Below are positions 12,881 to 39,661 of a stretch of 64,000 bases of DNA, piece after piece. Under the pieces are notes generated by a model. The model made no database searches and had not been told where the DNA came from. It saw only the letters and a list, made by a program, of their open reading frames with translations. Every line of letters starts with the position of its first letter. Within the stretch, counting starts at the first letter, position 1. The position numbers were made by a program, and so were the translations under genes. This stretch comes from Myxococcales bacterium. GTDB lineage: Bacteria; Myxococcota; Myxococcia; Myxococcales; Myxococcaceae. Location: positions 1 through 64,000 of the forward strand of contig JACPVI010000079.1 in the NCBI GenBank assembly GCA_016191815.1, in the 5' to 3' direction.

Positions 12881-13852
12881 ATGTCGAGCGCCATGAGCCG
12901 GGGACCCTTTTCAGCCCGCGCGGCCCTCGCCGCCGCCTTGCTCCTCGCCTCCTCCGCCAGCGCGGAGGCGGCGATCATCCTCCTGCCTTCGCTCGGCACC
13001 CAGAGTGAGGTGACCATCTGTGGCCGGGTGCTGAAGGATGCGCCTCGCGGCAGCACCCGCCTGTCGAGAAACCTCCGCCGGCTGCTCGTCTCCAACTGGG
13101 AGGGCGCTCCTCTCGAGATCGCCGCCCTCGGGCAGAAGGCCATCGCCACCTCCGGGCACGATGGCGAGTTCGAGGTGACCCTCTCGGCGCCGAAGGACCG
13201 GCCCTTCAAGCCCGGAGTGCACGTGGTCGAGGCGCGCGTGAGGGGCGCTGGCGCGAGGAGCTTCGTGGAGGTGGTCTCCGACCGCGCCCCGTTCTTCGTC
13301 ATCTCCGACTTCGACGACACCCTGGCGGTGAGCAACGTCACCGACTCTGCCAAGCTGGCGGAGGCCGCCCTGCTCGAGGACTCCGACAGCCAGCCGGTGG
13401 TGAAGGGGATGGCCGCCTTCTACCGGTGCCTCAAGGAGGGGAAAGCGGGTCCGCCATCGTTCGCGCTGGTGAGCGGCTCTCCGGTGCAGTACGGGCCGAG
13501 GGTGGGCGCCTTCCTCCAGAAGCACGGCTTCCCCCAGTTCGGCCTGTACCTGCGAAACCTCGGACCATCCACCCTCTCCGGGTACAAGCAGCCGATCATC
13601 CGCCGGCTGCTCGAGCGGCTGCCTCACAAGGTGGTGCTGGTGGGGGACTCTGGCGAAAAGGACCCGGAGGTCTACGCCGAGATGCGGGCCGCGTTCCCCG
13701 ACCGGGTGCTGCGCATCTACATCCGCGACGTGGGCAAGAGCGAGGATTCGAAGCGCTTCGAGGGGATGGTGCTGTTCAAGGATCCCAAGGCCGCCGCCGA
13801 GGACGCACTGGCTCAGGGACTGTTGGCCAAGGAGTGCCTGGAGAAGTGGTGA
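12881..13852 (+). CDS. App1-type phosphatase (DUF2183), exported
   Basis: A 323-aa protein with an N-terminal signal (ALAAALLLASSASAEA), a beta-rich domain (about 45-140), and a HAD-like phosphatase domain from about 145. It has ISDFDDTL with the catalytic Asp pair, ALVSGSP as motif II, and VLVGDSGEKDPE as the metal-binding DSG-x-x-D motif typical of App1 phosphatidate phosphatases. The ATG at 12881 is preceded by GGGAGGG at good spacing. Its start lies only 58 bp from that of the divergent kinase. Its stop overlaps the GTG of the next gene, suggesting a two-gene operon. An outer-surface lipid or phosphate ester substrate is inferred. Confidence 0.82.
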   Translation: MSSAMSRGPFSARAALAAALLLASSASAEAAIILLPSLGTQSEVTICGRVLKDAPRGSTRLSRNLRRLLVSNWEGAPLEIAALGQKAIATSGHDGEFEVTLSAPKDRPFKPGVHVVEARVRGAGARSFVEVVSDRAPFFVISDFDDTLAVSNVTDSAKLAEAALLEDSDSQPVVKGMAAFYRCLKEGKAGPPSFALVSGSPVQYGPRVGAFLQKHGFPQFGLYLRNLGPSTLSGYKQPIIRRLLERLPHKVVLVGDSGEKDPEVYAEMRAAFPDRVLRIYIRDVGKSEDSKRFEGMVLFKDPKAAAEDALAQGLLAKECLEKW

Positions 13853-14631
13853 AACTGTCGCGAGCGCTGGCGCTGGCGCTTTTGGCCGGCTGCACCGAGA
13901 AGAAGGCGGAGCCGCTCTCGTCGCTCGCGCCCAAGCCCTTGCCCACGCTCGAGGTCGCCGGCTCCGACGCCAGGGACGCCGACCGCGAAGCGCTCCACCG
14001 GGTGGAGGCGGCACCGGTCTACGGAGAAAAGGTGCCGCGGGCGACTCGGCTCGAGCTTTCTGAGGACTCGCTGCGGGTGGGGAGCGAAGCAATGCCGATC
14101 GATGGTCTGGACGCAGCCAGGCTCGCCGGCGCGCTGGGGAAAGAGGCGGTGGTCCTCATCGCTCCCGATTCCGAATTTTACCTCGCCAGGGCCGCTCCGC
14201 TCCTCGCCGCGCTGGAGGACGCGAGGGCCGAGGTTCAGCTCCTCCATCCTGGCGGAGAGGTCGCCTATCCGGTCGCTCTCTTCGATGAGCCACGTTTCCA
14301 GGCGTGGCTGGACGAGGTGAAGGCGGGGAAGATCCGCGTCATCCAGCGCGCCGATGGGTTCGAGCTGCAGACCGGCATGGGGAAGCTGGCCGGCCCGGAT
14401 CCCAACGGCCCCTCGGTGCCCCTGCGCGGGGGCAAGCTTGACATCGCCACGCTTCGGCGCGGGCTGCAGAAGCTCAAGGGCCGCTTCGACACCGCCGAGG
14501 ACATGTGCTTCGTGCCCTCCTTCGGCACCGAGCTGGCGAAGGTGGCGGAGGCGATGAGCGCCAACTACCAGGCGATGGGCCAGCCGATCTTCGAGCAGAC
14601 CTGCCTGGTGTACCCGCGGCCGCGAGGGTAG
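13849..14631 (+). CDS. Hypothetical lipoprotein
   Basis: A 260-aa protein that begins at a GTG overlapping the phosphatase stop (GTGA). MKLSRALALALLAGC is a clear lipoprotein signal with LAGC lipobox. The body shows two similar alpha/beta stretches, each with a VPL/PID-x-LD-x-A-x-L start, loosely reminiscent of the ExbD/TolR periplasmic fold (VPLRGGKLDIATLRRGLQKL), but the likeness is weak. It may work with the App1-type phosphatase at the envelope. No family is claimed. Confidence 0.7.
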   Translation: MKLSRALALALLAGCTEKKAEPLSSLAPKPLPTLEVAGSDARDADREALHRVEAAPVYGEKVPRATRLELSEDSLRVGSEAMPIDGLDAARLAGALGKEAVVLIAPDSEFYLARAAPLLAALEDARAEVQLLHPGGEVAYPVALFDEPRFQAWLDEVKAGKIRVIQRADGFELQTGMGKLAGPDPNGPSVPLRGGKLDIATLRRGLQKLKGRFDTAEDMCFVPSFGTELAKVAEAMSANYQAMGQPIFEQTCLVYPRPRG

Positions 14632-14657
14632 GCGGCATGGCCCGAGCGGGCCGGCAA

Positions 14658-14987
14658 TCAGATGCCGCTCGGCCCCACGCACACCGGCTGAGGGTTGTCC
14701 TTCACCGACTTGCACACGTAGCCCAGCCGGCAGTCGGCCTGGCTGCGGCAGAGCCGGAAGCACGCCGGGTTGTCCTTCGCCAGCCCGTCCTTGACGCAGG
14801 TGCTGCCGGAGGGGCAGCTGCGCTCGTCGGCCAGCGTGCATTGCCGGCTGCAGTAGCCGCCCGGGGTGTAGTCCTGGTTGACGCACACCTGGTTGCCGCA
14901 CTCGGCCGCGGTGGTGCAGGGATCTCCGATGGTCGGCCCGCACGCCGAGAAGGCCGCCAGCCCCGCGGCCGCCAAGAGAATTCGCAT
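14658..14987 (-). CDS. Small Cys-rich lipoprotein
   Basis: A 109-aa protein from the ATG at 14987, preceded by GGAGGAGG at ideal spacing. MRILLAAAGLAAFSAC is a lipoprotein signal. The mature part has about a dozen Cys in C..AAEC.NQVCV and C.SQADC.LGYVC patterns, a scaffold shared with many small myxobacterial surface lipoproteins and with the C-terminal modules of the giant lipoprotein at 1204-5847. It sits alone between two genes on the other strand. Function unknown. Confidence 0.75.
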   Translation of the reverse strand: MRILLAAAGLAAFSACGPTIGDPCTTAAECGNQVCVNQDYTPGGYCSRQCTLADERSCPSGSTCVKDGLAKDNPACFRLCRSQADCRLGYVCKSVKDNPQPVCVGPSGI

Positions 14988-15094
14988 CGCGTCCTCCTCC
15001 CTCGAAAACGCCGCTACCGGTTTGATGCGGCGCGGCATATCTTCGGGGCCGGCGACCGGGCAGTCCAACCTTTTCACCACGTGCGGGAGGTCCC

Positions 15095-16900
<1,806 letters not shown>

Positions 16901-34723: not shown

Positions 34724-35640
34724 GGCCTTCATCGCTCGCCGAGCGGTTGGCGAGCGAGGTCGCCGGGGAGGTGCGGGCCGATGAGCCCCTGGCGCCGAAG
34801 ACGAGCGTGAAGGTTGGCGGGCGAGCGGAGGCCTATGTGCGGCCCTCCGAGGTGGAGGCCTTGGTGGCCCTGCTCAGGCGGGCAAGGGAGCACCGCATTC
34901 CCCTCGCAGTCCTCGGAGGAGGCGCGAACACCCTGGTGGGCGACGGGGGGGTGCCCGGGGTGACGCTCAGGCTCCCCGCGGAGTTGTTCGCCGAGCAGGT
35001 GGAAGCGCGCCCGGGAGGGTTGGCGGTGACGCTCTCCGCCGGGGCGCCGATCGCCAGGCTCATCCAGCTCATGAAGACTCACCGGCTGGTGGGGGCGGAG
35101 TTTCTGGCCGGAATCCCGGGGACGATCGGCGGGGCGTGCGCGATGAACGCGGGCACCAAGGCAGGCGAGTGCATGTCGGTGGTGGAGGCGCTGGAGCTGG
35201 CGACGGCCGACGGGGTGGGCTGGGTGCCCCGGGAGGAGCTGGCGGCGCGCTACCGCGCCACCGCACTGCCCGAGGCAGCGGTGGTGACGCGGGCCCGCTT
35301 CCTCTTGCCCGAAGGGGACACCGAGAGCTCGCAGCGAAAGATGGAGGAGGACCTCGCGCACCGGAGGCGCACCCAGCCGCTCACCCTCCCCAGCTTCGGG
35401 AGCGTCTTCACCAACCCGCCGGGGAGCTACGCGGGAAAGCTCATCGAGGGTGTTGGCCTGAAAGGGCACACCATCGGCCGGGCGCAGATCTCTTCGCTGC
35501 ACGCCAATTTCATCGTCAATCTCGGCGGAGCCACCGCGCACGACATCGTGGCGCTGATGGAGCTGGCGCAGGCCCGGGTGAAGGAGGAGACGGGCGTGCT
35601 CCTCGAGCCGGAAGTGAAGCGGGTGGGGGTTTTCGTGTGA
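34720..35640 (+). CDS. murB: UDP-N-acetylenolpyruvoylglucosamine reductase MurB
   Basis: A 306-aa FAD enzyme reducing enolpyruvyl-UDP-GlcNAc to UDP-MurNAc. [18 protein letters not shown] and [20 protein letters not shown] form the FAD site; [10 protein letters not shown] and [25 protein letters not shown] mark the type II (short) MurB without the extra loop. The GTG overlaps the murC stop. Confidence 0.95.
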
Positions 35641-36596
35641 CGGAGGAGAGCTTGGCGGGTTTTTCGAAGGAACAGCTCGAGCGGAGGCGGATCGGGGTCG
35701 TTCAGGGCGGGCTCTCGGTGGAGCGCGAGGTGTCGCTCCGCACCGGAGCGGCGGTGTCGAAGGCCCTGCGCGAGCGCGGGTACGACCTCAGGGAGATCGA
35801 CGCGCAGAAGGATCTCGCCGCGCGGCTGGCAGAGGAGCGCATCGAGGTCGCCTTCATCGCGCTGCACGGTCGATTCGGCGAGGACGGCTGCGTCCAGGGG
35901 CTCTTGGAGTCGATGTTCATCCCCTACACCGGCTCGGGGGTCTTGGCCTCGGCGCTGGGAATGGAGAAGGTCTTCTCGAAGCAGGTGTTTGTCGCCCACG
36001 GCATTCCCACTCCGCCGTACCAGGCGTTCCGGACCGCGAAGGAGGCGCTGGGCGCGGCCGATGCTCTTCTCTTGCCGTTCCCGGTGGTGGTGAAGCCCTC
36101 GCGGGAGGGCTCCTCGGTGGGCGTGCACATCTGCCGGAGCAGGGAGGAGTACCATCTGGCGGTGGAGGACGCGGACCGCTACGCGGGGAGCCTGCTGGTG
36201 GAGCAGTACATCAAGGGGCGCGAGGTGCAGGGGGCGGTGCTGGAGGAAGAGCCTTTGGGGGCGATCGAGATCGTGCCCGCGAGGGAGTTCTACGACTACC
36301 AGGCGAAGTACCAGGCCGGGAGCGGGACGAAGTACCTCTTCCCGGCTCCGCTGGACCCGCCGGTGTACGCGCGGGTGAACGAGGTGTGCCTGGCGGCGCA
36401 CAAGGCGTTGGGCTGCAGCGGGGCGACGCGGTCGGACGCCATCGTGACCGAGAAGGGCGAGGTGTTCGTCCTCGAGGTGAACACGCTCCCCGGGATGACC
36501 GCGACCTCGCTGTTGCCGAAGATCGCCGCCGGGAGAGGCATCGAGTTCGGAGAGCTGTGCGAGCGGCTGCTCTTGGGCGCCTCGCTCAAGGCGTGA
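35637..36596 (+). CDS. ddl: D-alanine--D-alanine ligase
   Basis: A 319-aa ATP-grasp ligase making the dipeptide used by MurF. Features: VVQGGLSVEREVSLRTG, ALHGRFGEDGCVQGLLE, PYTGSGVLASALGMEK, VVVKPSREGSSVGV and VLEVNTLPGMTATSLLPK. The GTG at 35637 overlaps the murB stop. The last 100 codons have a long antisense frame continuous with the antitoxin remnant at 36296-36802. Confidence 0.95.
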   Translation: MTEESLAGFSKEQLERRRIGVVQGGLSVEREVSLRTGAAVSKALRERGYDLREIDAQKDLAARLAEERIEVAFIALHGRFGEDGCVQGLLESMFIPYTGSGVLASALGMEKVFSKQVFVAHGIPTPPYQAFRTAKEALGAADALLLPFPVVVKPSREGSSVGVHICRSREEYHLAVEDADRYAGSLLVEQYIKGREVQGAVLEEEPLGAIEIVPAREFYDYQAKYQAGSGTKYLFPAPLDPPVYARVNEVCLAAHKALGCSGATRSDAIVTEKGEVFVLEVNTLPGMTATSLLPKIAAGRGIEFGELCERLLLGASLKA

Positions 36597-36802
36597 CCGG
36601 GCTCCAGGATGCGTTCCGCTTCGGTTGCATGGTCGAGGTTCGACTCCCACTTTCCAGCGAGCTTCCGCCACGCGGCGACTTGGGCTTCGACCTCGAGGAG
36701 ATGGATAATCTCCTGGGTCAGGCTGCGGCGGTCCCGCTCGGCTGCCTCGCGGAGCGCACCGAGCAGGCCATCAGGGAGGTTCTTCAGTGTGAGCGAGGCC
36801 AT
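36296..36802 (-). pseudogene. Orphan FitA-like antitoxin remnant, antisense to ddl
   Basis: The first 66 residues of this minus-strand frame form a ribbon-helix-helix antitoxin: MASLTLKNLPDGLLGALREA, then a second helix with SLTQEIIHLLEVEA. This matches the FitA/VapB family. From about residue 69 (36598 downwards) the frame runs antisense through the ddl 3' end, where it looks nothing like an antitoxin, until a stop at 36296. The expected PIN toxin gene downstream is absent. It is best seen as a remnant whose natural end was lost, joined to ddl. Upstream, TTGACG (36860-36855, minus) may be a leftover -35. Confidence 0.5.
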
Positions 36803-36964: not shown

Positions 36965-38623
36965 ATGCGCGTCGCGCTGCTCGTCACCGACCTCGAGGGT
37001 GTCGCCGGAGTGGATGGAGTGGAGCCGCTGCTCGCCGGGAGCCCCTCCTACCCGCGCGCGAAGGAGTTTTTGACCGGCGAGGTGAACGCCGCGGTCGAAG
37101 GCCTCCGGAGGGGCGGCTTCGAGATCGTCAGGGTGAGCGACAGCCACCGGGCCGCGGGAGGGCCGAACCTGAGGCGGGGCGAGCTGCATCCTGCGGCGCG
37201 CCTGGTCCAGGCGGAGGATGCCTACGCCCCCGAGCTGTTCGATGGGGTGTCGGCGGTGGCCTGCCTCGGCATGCACGCTCCGGCGGGGAGCCTAGGCTTC
37301 GCCGCCCACACCGTGGCGGTGCACTGCGCTTGGTCGGCCGGCCGCCGCGCGCTCAGCGAGCTGGACCTGATCCTCGCCCTCGCCGCCGAGCGCCGCTTGC
37401 CGGCGGTGTTCGCTTCGGGGGACGACGCGCTCGAGCGGCACGCGCGCGGCGTGCGCTTCGTCCGCACCAAGCGGGCACTGTCGATCGCCGAAGCGAGGTC
37501 GATGGAACCCGAGCAGGCGCGAGTCGAGCTGATGGCGGCGGCCGGACGGCCTCCGCTGGCCTTGCCCCCTCCGCCCCGCGGGCCGCTGCGCTTGAGCTTC
37601 AAGAGTCGGTGGCAGGCGGACCTGGCCCAGCAAGCGGGCGGCGAGCGCGTCGGGGAGTGCTCGGTGAGAATCTCCGGCGCGAGCTTCGGCGAACGATACC
37701 GGCGCGCGCTCGAAGTGCTCGCCCCCAGCGAAGAGGTGCTGGGCGGCTGCCTTCGGGGTAGCGCCGGGGACCCGGACTTCTGCGAAGACGTCCTCGGCCT
37801 GCTGTCGCGAGAGTTCGAGCGGAAGCCGACCCGAAGGGCGCCCGGCGCGGCGCGTGCAGCGCTCCGGGCGTTCCTCGGATGCACCGACGGCGCCGCGGAC
37901 TGGCAGCGGGCGCTCCGGGCGCTGGTGCTTCACATGCTGGAGGCCCACGCTCCAGGCTTTTTCCGTGCCCAGCGCCTCCGTTCCTCTCTGGAGAGCGCGC
38001 TCTCGGCCCTGGCGGAGGTTCCGCAGTCGTTTCCGCCAGAGCTCGAGCCCTCGGACGTGATGGCCAGGCTCGATGCGCTCTACCTGTTGGGTGAGCGGAG
38101 CTCGCTTTCTGATGCCGGGGCCGGCGAGCTGCGGCGCTACCTTCGGGCGCTGCTCTCCGAGGGAGAGGTGCTGTACGCCTGGCTGCTCGCGCAGCTCGCC
38201 CGCGAGGTGGGGCTCGGGAGGGCAGCCCCGCGAGTCGCGGAGAGAGTGCTCCGCAAGCTCCCGCGCGACCGGAGGGCCTACTGGCTCACCCATCGGTTCT
38301 TCCTCGCGACGGGGTATCTGCGAGCTCCGCTCGAACGGAGCGAGTGGGGCGCCGCCATCGAGGAGGCGCTGCTCGCCGCCAGCTGGGCGGTGGAGCACGC
38401 GCAGGTGGATCTCGCGGCCGAGCTGGCGCTGTGCCTCCAGGCGGCCGGCGAGTCGCGGAGCGCGGAGCACCGCGCGCTGCTCGAGCTGCTCCGCCGCCAC
38501 CAGAGGCCGGACGGGTGGGTGGAGGACCCGACCTCGAGGGAGGAAGCGCGCGACGAGGCGGATCTCGCAGAGATGGACGCGCACACCACCGCGGTGGCGC
38601 TGCTCGCCTTCGCCGGCCTCTAA
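36965..38623 (+). CDS. M55 D-aminopeptidase fused to a helical C-terminal domain
   Basis: A 552-aa two-part protein. Residues 1-235 match the DppA family of zinc D-aminopeptidases: D9 and E11 (TDLEGVAGV), H61 (SDSHRAAGGPN), H104 (GMHAPAG) and E132 align almost number for number with the five metal ligands of Bacillus DppA, followed by the AVFASGDD strand. DppA releases D-Ala from D-Ala-D-Ala and similar peptides. Residues 240-552 are all-helical, with a DAHTTAVALLAFAGL end like the DUF6895-type helical repeat domains; its role is unknown. It sits between ddl and ftsQ, where it could recycle or trim D-Ala peptides. Start is the ATG at 36965; a remnant antitoxin precedes it on the other strand. 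Confidence 0.8.
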   Translation: MRVALLVTDLEGVAGVDGVEPLLAGSPSYPRAKEFLTGEVNAAVEGLRRGGFEIVRVSDSHRAAGGPNLRRGELHPAARLVQAEDAYAPELFDGVSAVACLGMHAPAGSLGFAAHTVAVHCAWSAGRRALSELDLILALAAERRLPAVFASGDDALERHARGVRFVRTKRALSIAEARSMEPEQARVELMAAAGRPPLALPPPPRGPLRLSFKSRWQADLAQQAGGERVGECSVRISGASFGERYRRALEVLAPSEEVLGGCLRGSAGDPDFCEDVLGLLSREFERKPTRRAPGAARAALRAFLGCTDGAADWQRALRALVLHMLEAHAPGFFRAQRLRSSLESALSALAEVPQSFPPELEPSDVMARLDALYLLGERSSLSDAGAGELRRYLRALLSEGEVLYAWLLAQLAREVGLGRAAPRVAERVLRKLPRDRRAYWLTHRFFLATGYLRAPLERSEWGAAIEEALLAASWAVEHAQVDLAAELALCLQAAGESRSAEHRALLELLRRHQRPDGWVEDPTSREEARDEADLAEMDAHTTAVALLAFAGL

Positions 38624-38809
38624 AGCGCGCCTCAGGGCAGCACGGCGATGGTGTCCCGCGTTCCGATGGTGCCGCACGGGCGCCGATAGGCCAAACTCGC
38701 TGCCCGAGTCAACTCGGCGCTTCCGCCAGCTACATTCCTGTGGCAAAAAATTTGCGGGGGGATCCAACCAGCCTGACGATGCGGGCTGGGCTCCCTTGGG
38801 CCCGAATTC

Positions 38810-39661
38810 ATGCGACTTTTCAGGCCCCGGAACCGCCGCAGGACTGACGCCGAGAGGTCGTCCGGCGAGCTGCGTTCAGCGGCCCGGCAGGTCGGCGTCG
38901 CGGCCTGGCGTTTTTCCGCTGCGCTCGCTTTTTCTGCGGCGGTCGCCCTCGGCGGCTACTTCGGGCGGGGCTGGGCTCGCTCCTCGCCGACCTTCGCCCT
39001 CGAGCGCATCACCTTCACCGGCGCGGCCCGGGCTCCACAGGTCGAGCTGCTCCGCCTCGCCGCTCTGGCGCCAGGGCAGAACCTCTTCTCGATCGACACC
39101 GCCGCCGCCGCCCGCGCCCTCGAAGCGCACCCGTGGGTCAAGTCCGCAGCGCTTACTCGGCACTGGCCGCGCGCGCTTTCGGTGGAGATCGTCGAGCACG
39201 AGCCCGCAGCGCTGGTCTCACTGGGCGAGCTGTACTTGCTCGACCGCGACGGCGAGCCCTTCAAGAAGCTGCAGGCGGCCGACCCGCTCGACCTGCCGCT
39301 GGTGACCGGTATCGGCCGCGAGGACTACGCCGCCCGCCCCGCGCAGAGCGCCGCCCGCTTCACCCGCGCGCTCGAGGTGGCGGGCGCCTACGCGTCCACG
39401 CCCAGCTCGCGCGAAGAGCGGCTGTCGGAGGTCCGGCTGGAAGGCGACGAGGTGACGCTCGTGGTGGGCGACGGACAGGAAGTGCGCCTGGGCGCGTCGG
39501 GCTGGCCCTTGAAGCTCGAGCGGCTGGGGCAGGTGCGCCGCGAGCTTGCCCGGCGCGGGCTCGCGGCCTCGGCCATCCACCTCGACAACCGCGCCCGGCC
39601 CGGCTGGGTGACCGTTCAGGTTTCGGCCCGTCTTTCCGAGAGGAGCGGGCCGGTGCAGTAG
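38810..39661 (+). CDS. ftsQ: Cell division protein FtsQ
   Basis: A 283-aa bitopic protein: basic N-terminus, one membrane helix (about residues 38-52), a POTRA domain starting FALERITFTGAARAP with HPWVKSAALTRHWPRALSVEIVEHEP, and the FtsQ beta domain ending RPGWVTVQVS. The POTRA domain recruits FtsL/FtsB. A 186-bp gap lies upstream and contains AT-rich GCAAAAAATTTGC and the dyad CCGAGTCAACTCGG, so ftsQAZ probably has its own promoter. Confidence 0.88.
   Translation: MRLFRPRNRRRTDAERSSGELRSAARQVGVAAWRFSAALAFSAAVALGGYFGRGWARSSPTFALERITFTGAARAPQVELLRLAALAPGQNLFSIDTAAAARALEAHPWVKSAALTRHWPRALSVEIVEHEPAALVSLGELYLLDRDGEPFKKLQAADPLDLPLVTGIGREDYAARPAQSAARFTRALEVAGAYASTPSSREERLSEVRLEGDEVTLVVGDGQEVRLGASGWPLKLERLGQVRRELARRGLAASAIHLDNRARPGWVTVQVSARLSERSGPVQ

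Follow-up and report, generated by a model that had tools for sequence, protein, structure and literature searches.

The 64,000-nt stretch analyzed here (the window; positions 1–64,000, forward strand, of contig JACPVI010000079.1, assembly GCA_016191815.1, from a Myxococcales bacterium of the family Myxococcaceae) contains, at positions 36,965–38,623 of the plus strand, a complete ORF of 552 aa encoding a fusion of an M55 peptidase domain (residues 6–246; nt 36,980–37,702, plus strand) to an alpha/alpha toroid related to DUF6895 (residues 287–552; nt 37,823–38,620, plus strand). The gene lies among genes of the dcw cluster, with the order murC-murB-ddl upstream and ftsQ, ftsA, and ftsZ downstream. 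Its immediate neighbors, both on the plus strand, are ddl, for the D-Ala-D-Ala ligase (35,637–36,596, its start being taken from the gene-caller prediction), and ftsQ (38,810–39,661). An earlier note on this DNA had already described the open ORF and its position between ddl and ftsQ, and both descriptions hold.

The approximately 370 bp that separate the fusion gene from ddl contain the remnant of a gene for a FitA-like ribbon-helix-helix antitoxin (36,597–36,802, minus strand; PF22513, E = 7.8e-8), whose reading frame extends antisense into ddl and for which no partner toxin was seen. Downstream of the fusion gene, a conserved element of 43 bp preceding ftsQ (38,727–38,769, plus strand; consensus near CAGCnACGTnnCTGTAGCnAAAAACTGGCGnGGnGATCCAACC) matches the ddl-ftsQ spacers of relatives, with 76–79% identity by blastn in 11 of them, indicating that the inserted block follows ddl and precedes the old spacer of ftsQ. 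This element is possibly a promoter or regulatory site for ftsQ; a scan of the region for sigma-70 promoters gave no match.

We inspected the ddl loci of 29 relatives, 25 of which also show ftsQ and constitute the assessable set. The fusion gene was between ddl and ftsQ in none of these 25, about nine of which carry it elsewhere, and their ddl-ftsQ spacer is roughly 100–190 bp in all except one. The exception, G085, has a spacer of ~770 bp with an unrelated ORF, and this different insert indicates that the gap accepts insertions more than once; the insert itself (~600 bp; L050, 859–1482) carries an ORF of ~200 aa that matches no family. Likewise, dcw genes were found at none of the 14 other fusion loci tested and, as judged by conservation of the ddl-ftsQ position, the fusion gene is not a member of the dcw cluster. 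From the antitoxin remnant and the surviving element upstream of ftsQ, the dcw copy is recognized as an insertion specific to this lineage, which looks like a one-off event, and its dcw neighbors are probably a coincidence. Conservation of the position among relatives, proposed in the earlier note as a check, was thus not observed, the location being unique to the window genome, and with it falls the argument for control of the D-Ala-D-Ala pool that had been drawn from the vicinity of ddl. We therefore discarded the position as evidence for a role in D-Ala-D-Ala metabolism: it has no demonstrated functional tie to Ddl and is no basis for conclusions on function. The window genome also contains a second Ddl paralog, 47% identical and located outside of dcw (G000:C2:104927-105820), and many of the relatives have two as well.

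Residues 6–246 pass the Pfam cut-off for Peptidase_M55 (PF04951; 114.9 bits vs. 25, E = 5.5e-33), and the only sequence match of the fusion protein in the PDB was DppA from B. subtilis (MEROPS M55; 1hi9, E = 3.4e-10). In an AlphaFold2 model of the fusion protein built from 14 sequences (mean pLDDT 92.5, pTM 0.90), residues 2–262 superpose on 1hi9 with a Z of 31.3 and 2.1 Å over 258 residues. The five zinc ligands of DppA, which we take to be D8, E10, H60, H104, and E133 in 1hi9, align with D9, E11, H61, H104, and E132, as the earlier note had indicated, and H115 aligns with H115 of DppA, the catalytic His. A signal peptide is not evident. Conversely, the window protein is only 23% identical to DppA and does not reach the DppA equivalog NF058634 (46.1 bits vs. 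a cut-off of 430, with 193 bits for the unfused M55 protein of a related member of the class), DppA lacks the 265-residue C-terminal toroid, and no dpp operon is found near the window gene. Judging from its sequence, the N-terminal region is a divergent M55 D-aminopeptidase domain with a full DppA-type di-zinc site; of the initial reading as a D-Ala peptidase, the D-aminopeptidase-family fold, the intact catalytic residues and the fusion to a helical domain stand. We are highly confident of this anatomy, of the assignment of the domains and of the insertion in the dcw cluster.

The C-terminal helical domain is also real, being well modeled, and spans ~265 residues instead of the 310 first proposed. 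Its kind is also partly known, since the last third, residues 433–549 (38,261–38,611, plus strand), passes the Pfam cut-off for DUF6895 (PF21836; 41.1 bits vs. 23.8, E = 1.8e-10), as do the gammaproteobacterial fusions and a protein from Hyalangium. The alignment is confined to columns 163–288 of the 289 in the profile and, in a comparison of the toroid with remote DUF6895 members using hhalign (probability 95.6, E = 1.2e-8), to the last ~104 columns, so that DUF6895 is recognizable only in the final ~110 residues of the toroid. Among 25 fused and stand-alone toroids, R318, D370, Y439, H443, D482, E486, and H540 are invariant where covered, and T442 and C490 are nearly invariant. The invariant residues sit on helices 312–328, 362–378, 434–448, 481–493, and 531–551, which form the inner ring, as assigned by helix order, whereas, at a threshold of 90%, no polar residue is conserved on the outer-ring helices. 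This concentration of invariant polar residues on the inner ring suggests a second active site, and we favor, with some reserve, a toroid that acts as a second catalytic module in its own right. The positions of H443, D482, and E486, and mostly that of H540, are shared with remote gammaproteobacterial DUF6895 proteins. However, only the C-terminal third to half of the domain aligns with this family and the fusion adds an M55 domain, the function of the fusion branch being only predicted.

The nearest folds of residues 287–552 are those of class II terpene cyclases (Z ~14–15 over 233–245 residues), Z values of 13–15 being near the range that is common for helical folds. The D-x-D-D acid motif of these enzymes is absent from the sequence and, together with the commonness of such Z values, this indicates a match in fold and not in function; we therefore rejected a role as terpene cyclase. 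Additionally, the window protein is 10–18% identical to the cyclases seen among the matches and contains a single toroid, and a sequence search of solved structures with the toroid retrieved nothing beyond a weak match to a stretch of squalene-hopene cyclase (E = 0.0017). A search for plasmid-borne relatives of the toroid found none.

The M55-toroid fusion was present in 20 genes, including a frameshifted one in G043, from 19 genomes: 16 of Myxococcaceae, one of another family of Myxococcota and two of Gammaproteobacteria. The window genome carries two copies. In all seven genomes of genus g26, each domain has a gene of its own and the two genes are on different contigs; in the two neighborhoods read, the toroid gene overlaps the final part of the gene before it, and these two preceding genes belong to one family, the one scanned being an M1 aminopeptidase. 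The pairing is thus real and recurrent, with the domains fused in most genomes and separate but co-present in g26, which is the pattern of a fusion link. Eight genomes or MAGs (five of genus g4, G073, G083, and a Haliea MAG) showed a toroid match without M55. The toroids aligned that are separate from M55, or occur without it, keep D370, Y439, H443, D482, E486, and H540, as well as R318 where covered. The full fusion of G087 is preceded by an M23-peptidase gene and followed by a response-regulator gene, and the g4 toroid gene is flanked by a response-regulator gene and a gene similar to the M23-peptidase gene of the G087 locus; this shared neighborhood suggests that the g4 toroid is probably either a remnant left after loss of M55 or marks the site where both domains were joined. 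Conversely, the fusions from G074 and G075 (L016 and L034) have lost the M55 ligands E11 and H61, the toroid residues being intact in G075, the one checked, which indicates that hydrolysis is not always needed. Together, the toroids without M55 and the fusions with a degenerate M55 argue for an M55-independent role of the toroid and, as far as sequences can tell, the two domains are repeatedly kept together even though the toroid has a role of its own.

The second copy of the window genome, on contig 6, shows the synteny rpsI-rplM-fusion-helicase, as in G089, and groups with the G089 protein in a supported clade, apart from the window copy, to which it is 51% identical. We thus rejected a recent duplication; the shared synteny and clade indicate that the contig 6 copy was inherited, the copy in the window representing either an older paralog or a gene acquired by transfer within the family. 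An unfused M55 gene from a related class member (L141, 4800–5627) is also found near a UvrD-like helicase gene and genes similar to rplM and rpsI. The resemblance of this neighborhood to that of the contig 6 copy (L023) suggests an ancestral M55 locus to which the toroid was later added.

Within Myxococcaceae, the fusion is normally a solitary gene, with neighborhoods of housekeeping or unrelated genes that vary among genera. In one of the gammaproteobacteria (G195), there is an overlap of the fusion gene with the end of an ATP-grasp gene resembling those for maturases of ribosomal peptides (L110, 7003–7998; TIGR04187, E = 2.2e-23; MvdC, E = 1.2e-15), which is preceded by a GNAT gene, a Gly-rich ORF of 82 aa and a further ATP-grasp-like gene. 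The other (G331, L135) shows a similar order, with three tandem Gly-rich ORFs of 83–88 aa, all ending in ASDNTSIGSINVSG, and three GNAT-like genes. The clusters (L110, 4662–9692; L135, 1891–9175) contain two ATP-grasp-type genes, GNAT genes and the fusion, with genes for TolC-like channels nearby. The Gly-rich ORFs from both genomes end in SDNTSIGSINVS(G/S) and, given their tandem copies and common C-terminus, they look like precursors of RiPPs; those scanned matched no family. As in graspetide clusters (MvdC/MvdD, GRASP_SAV_5884), the gammaproteobacterial fusion directly follows an ATP-grasp gene of this type on the same strand, but here the precursors are Gly-rich. Neither a RiPP precursor nor an ATP-grasp maturase was found near the window gene or the other myxobacterial fusions in the stretches searched. 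Separately, Hyalangium versicolor has a stand-alone DUF6895-like gene (L042, 7948–8706) ~5 kb from a microviridin-like graspetide cluster (13,827–16,000) with a precursor containing KPFFARLLEAQ and two ATP-grasp genes, a proximity that may be due to chance.

From these comparisons, the explanation that we prefer, tentatively and at a little less than an even chance, is that the fusion is a cytosolic two-domain enzyme acting on peptides with D-residues, the substrate and an epimerase step being deduced. The DUF6895-like toroid would change or recognize the configuration of a residue near the end of a peptide and the M55 domain would remove or hydrolyze the D-residue, with peptides perhaps passing straight from the first active site to the second. 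The proposal of an epimerase derives from the title of a work on a DUF6895-family epimerase in lasso peptide modification (Shi et al., 2026, ACS Catal. 16, 1757, as cited in PMC13352647), and an epimerase toroid that supplies the M55 site is, by itself, a conjecture that we consider rather unlikely. In its most complete form, which could be summarized as "flip-and-clip," the toroid would epimerize a peptide residue and M55 would hydrolyze the D-residue so produced. Myxobacteria would use the protein on its own, for housekeeping or nutrition, and in Gammaproteobacteria it would tailor or trim Gly-rich RiPPs of a family not described so far; we regard this whole version as unlikely. Counting against the preferred two-domain enzyme, no RiPP cluster adjoins the fusion in Myxococcaceae, the resemblance to DUF6895 is confined to the end of the toroid, and the G074 and G075 fusions have lost two M55 ligands.

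Alternatively, the toroid could be a non-enzymatic cap that gates the M55 chamber or builds the oligomer, the protein being a general scavenger of D-peptides. DppA is a self-compartmentalizing particle, according to the title of entry 1hi9, so that an added domain could restrict access to its chamber, and alpha/alpha toroids also occur in proteins that are not enzymes, among them transcobalamin and complement C3d/C4d. However, the toroid exists without M55 in the eight genomes or MAGs mentioned above and on a separate contig in seven, retaining its invariant residues in those aligned, and two fusions have a degenerate M55 site, with the full toroid set in the one checked. DUF6895 also holds the epimerase reported in the title cited in PMC13352647. 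A non-enzymatic cap seems rather improbable.

A lower probability corresponds to a tailoring enzyme for RiPPs or other natural products in every host, the precursor gene being unlinked in the case of Myxococcaceae. The compact operon that, in two gammaproteobacteria, combines the fusion with an ATP-grasp maturase and Gly-rich precursor-like genes agrees with this possibility, as do the participation of DUF6895 in lasso peptide modification, insofar as PMC13352647 cites it, and the Hyalangium toroid gene. Nevertheless, both gammaproteobacteria are from the same small order and count as a single event, the myxobacterial neighborhoods differ among genera, and the Hyalangium gene is separated from the cluster by a gene on the opposite strand, which makes a universal tailoring role quite unlikely. 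Similarly improbable is a D-Ala-D-Ala hydrolase acting beside ddl in pool control or wall recycling, with a regulatory helical domain, since the complete DppA-type site, the lack of an evident signal peptide and the location immediately after ddl, in the same orientation, are opposed by a position unique among the 25 assessable relatives and 15 fusion loci, by the intervening gap with its antitoxin remnant, by a score far below the DppA equivalog cut-off and by the persistence of the toroid without M55. Nothing in the present data points to wall recycling or to the use of prey-derived D-peptides, the other roles suggested in the earlier note.

Our literature search retrieved no description of an M55 peptidase fused to DUF6895. 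The fusion gives experimental access to two families that are poorly understood, with respect to the cleavage targets of M55 enzymes other than DppA and to DUF6895 toroids outside of lasso peptides, and it draws attention to a RiPP-like cluster, not described so far, whose Gly-rich precursors occur in tandem. If the epimerase step of the preferred two-domain enzyme were true, a single polypeptide would change the chirality of a residue and use that chirality as the signal for cleavage.
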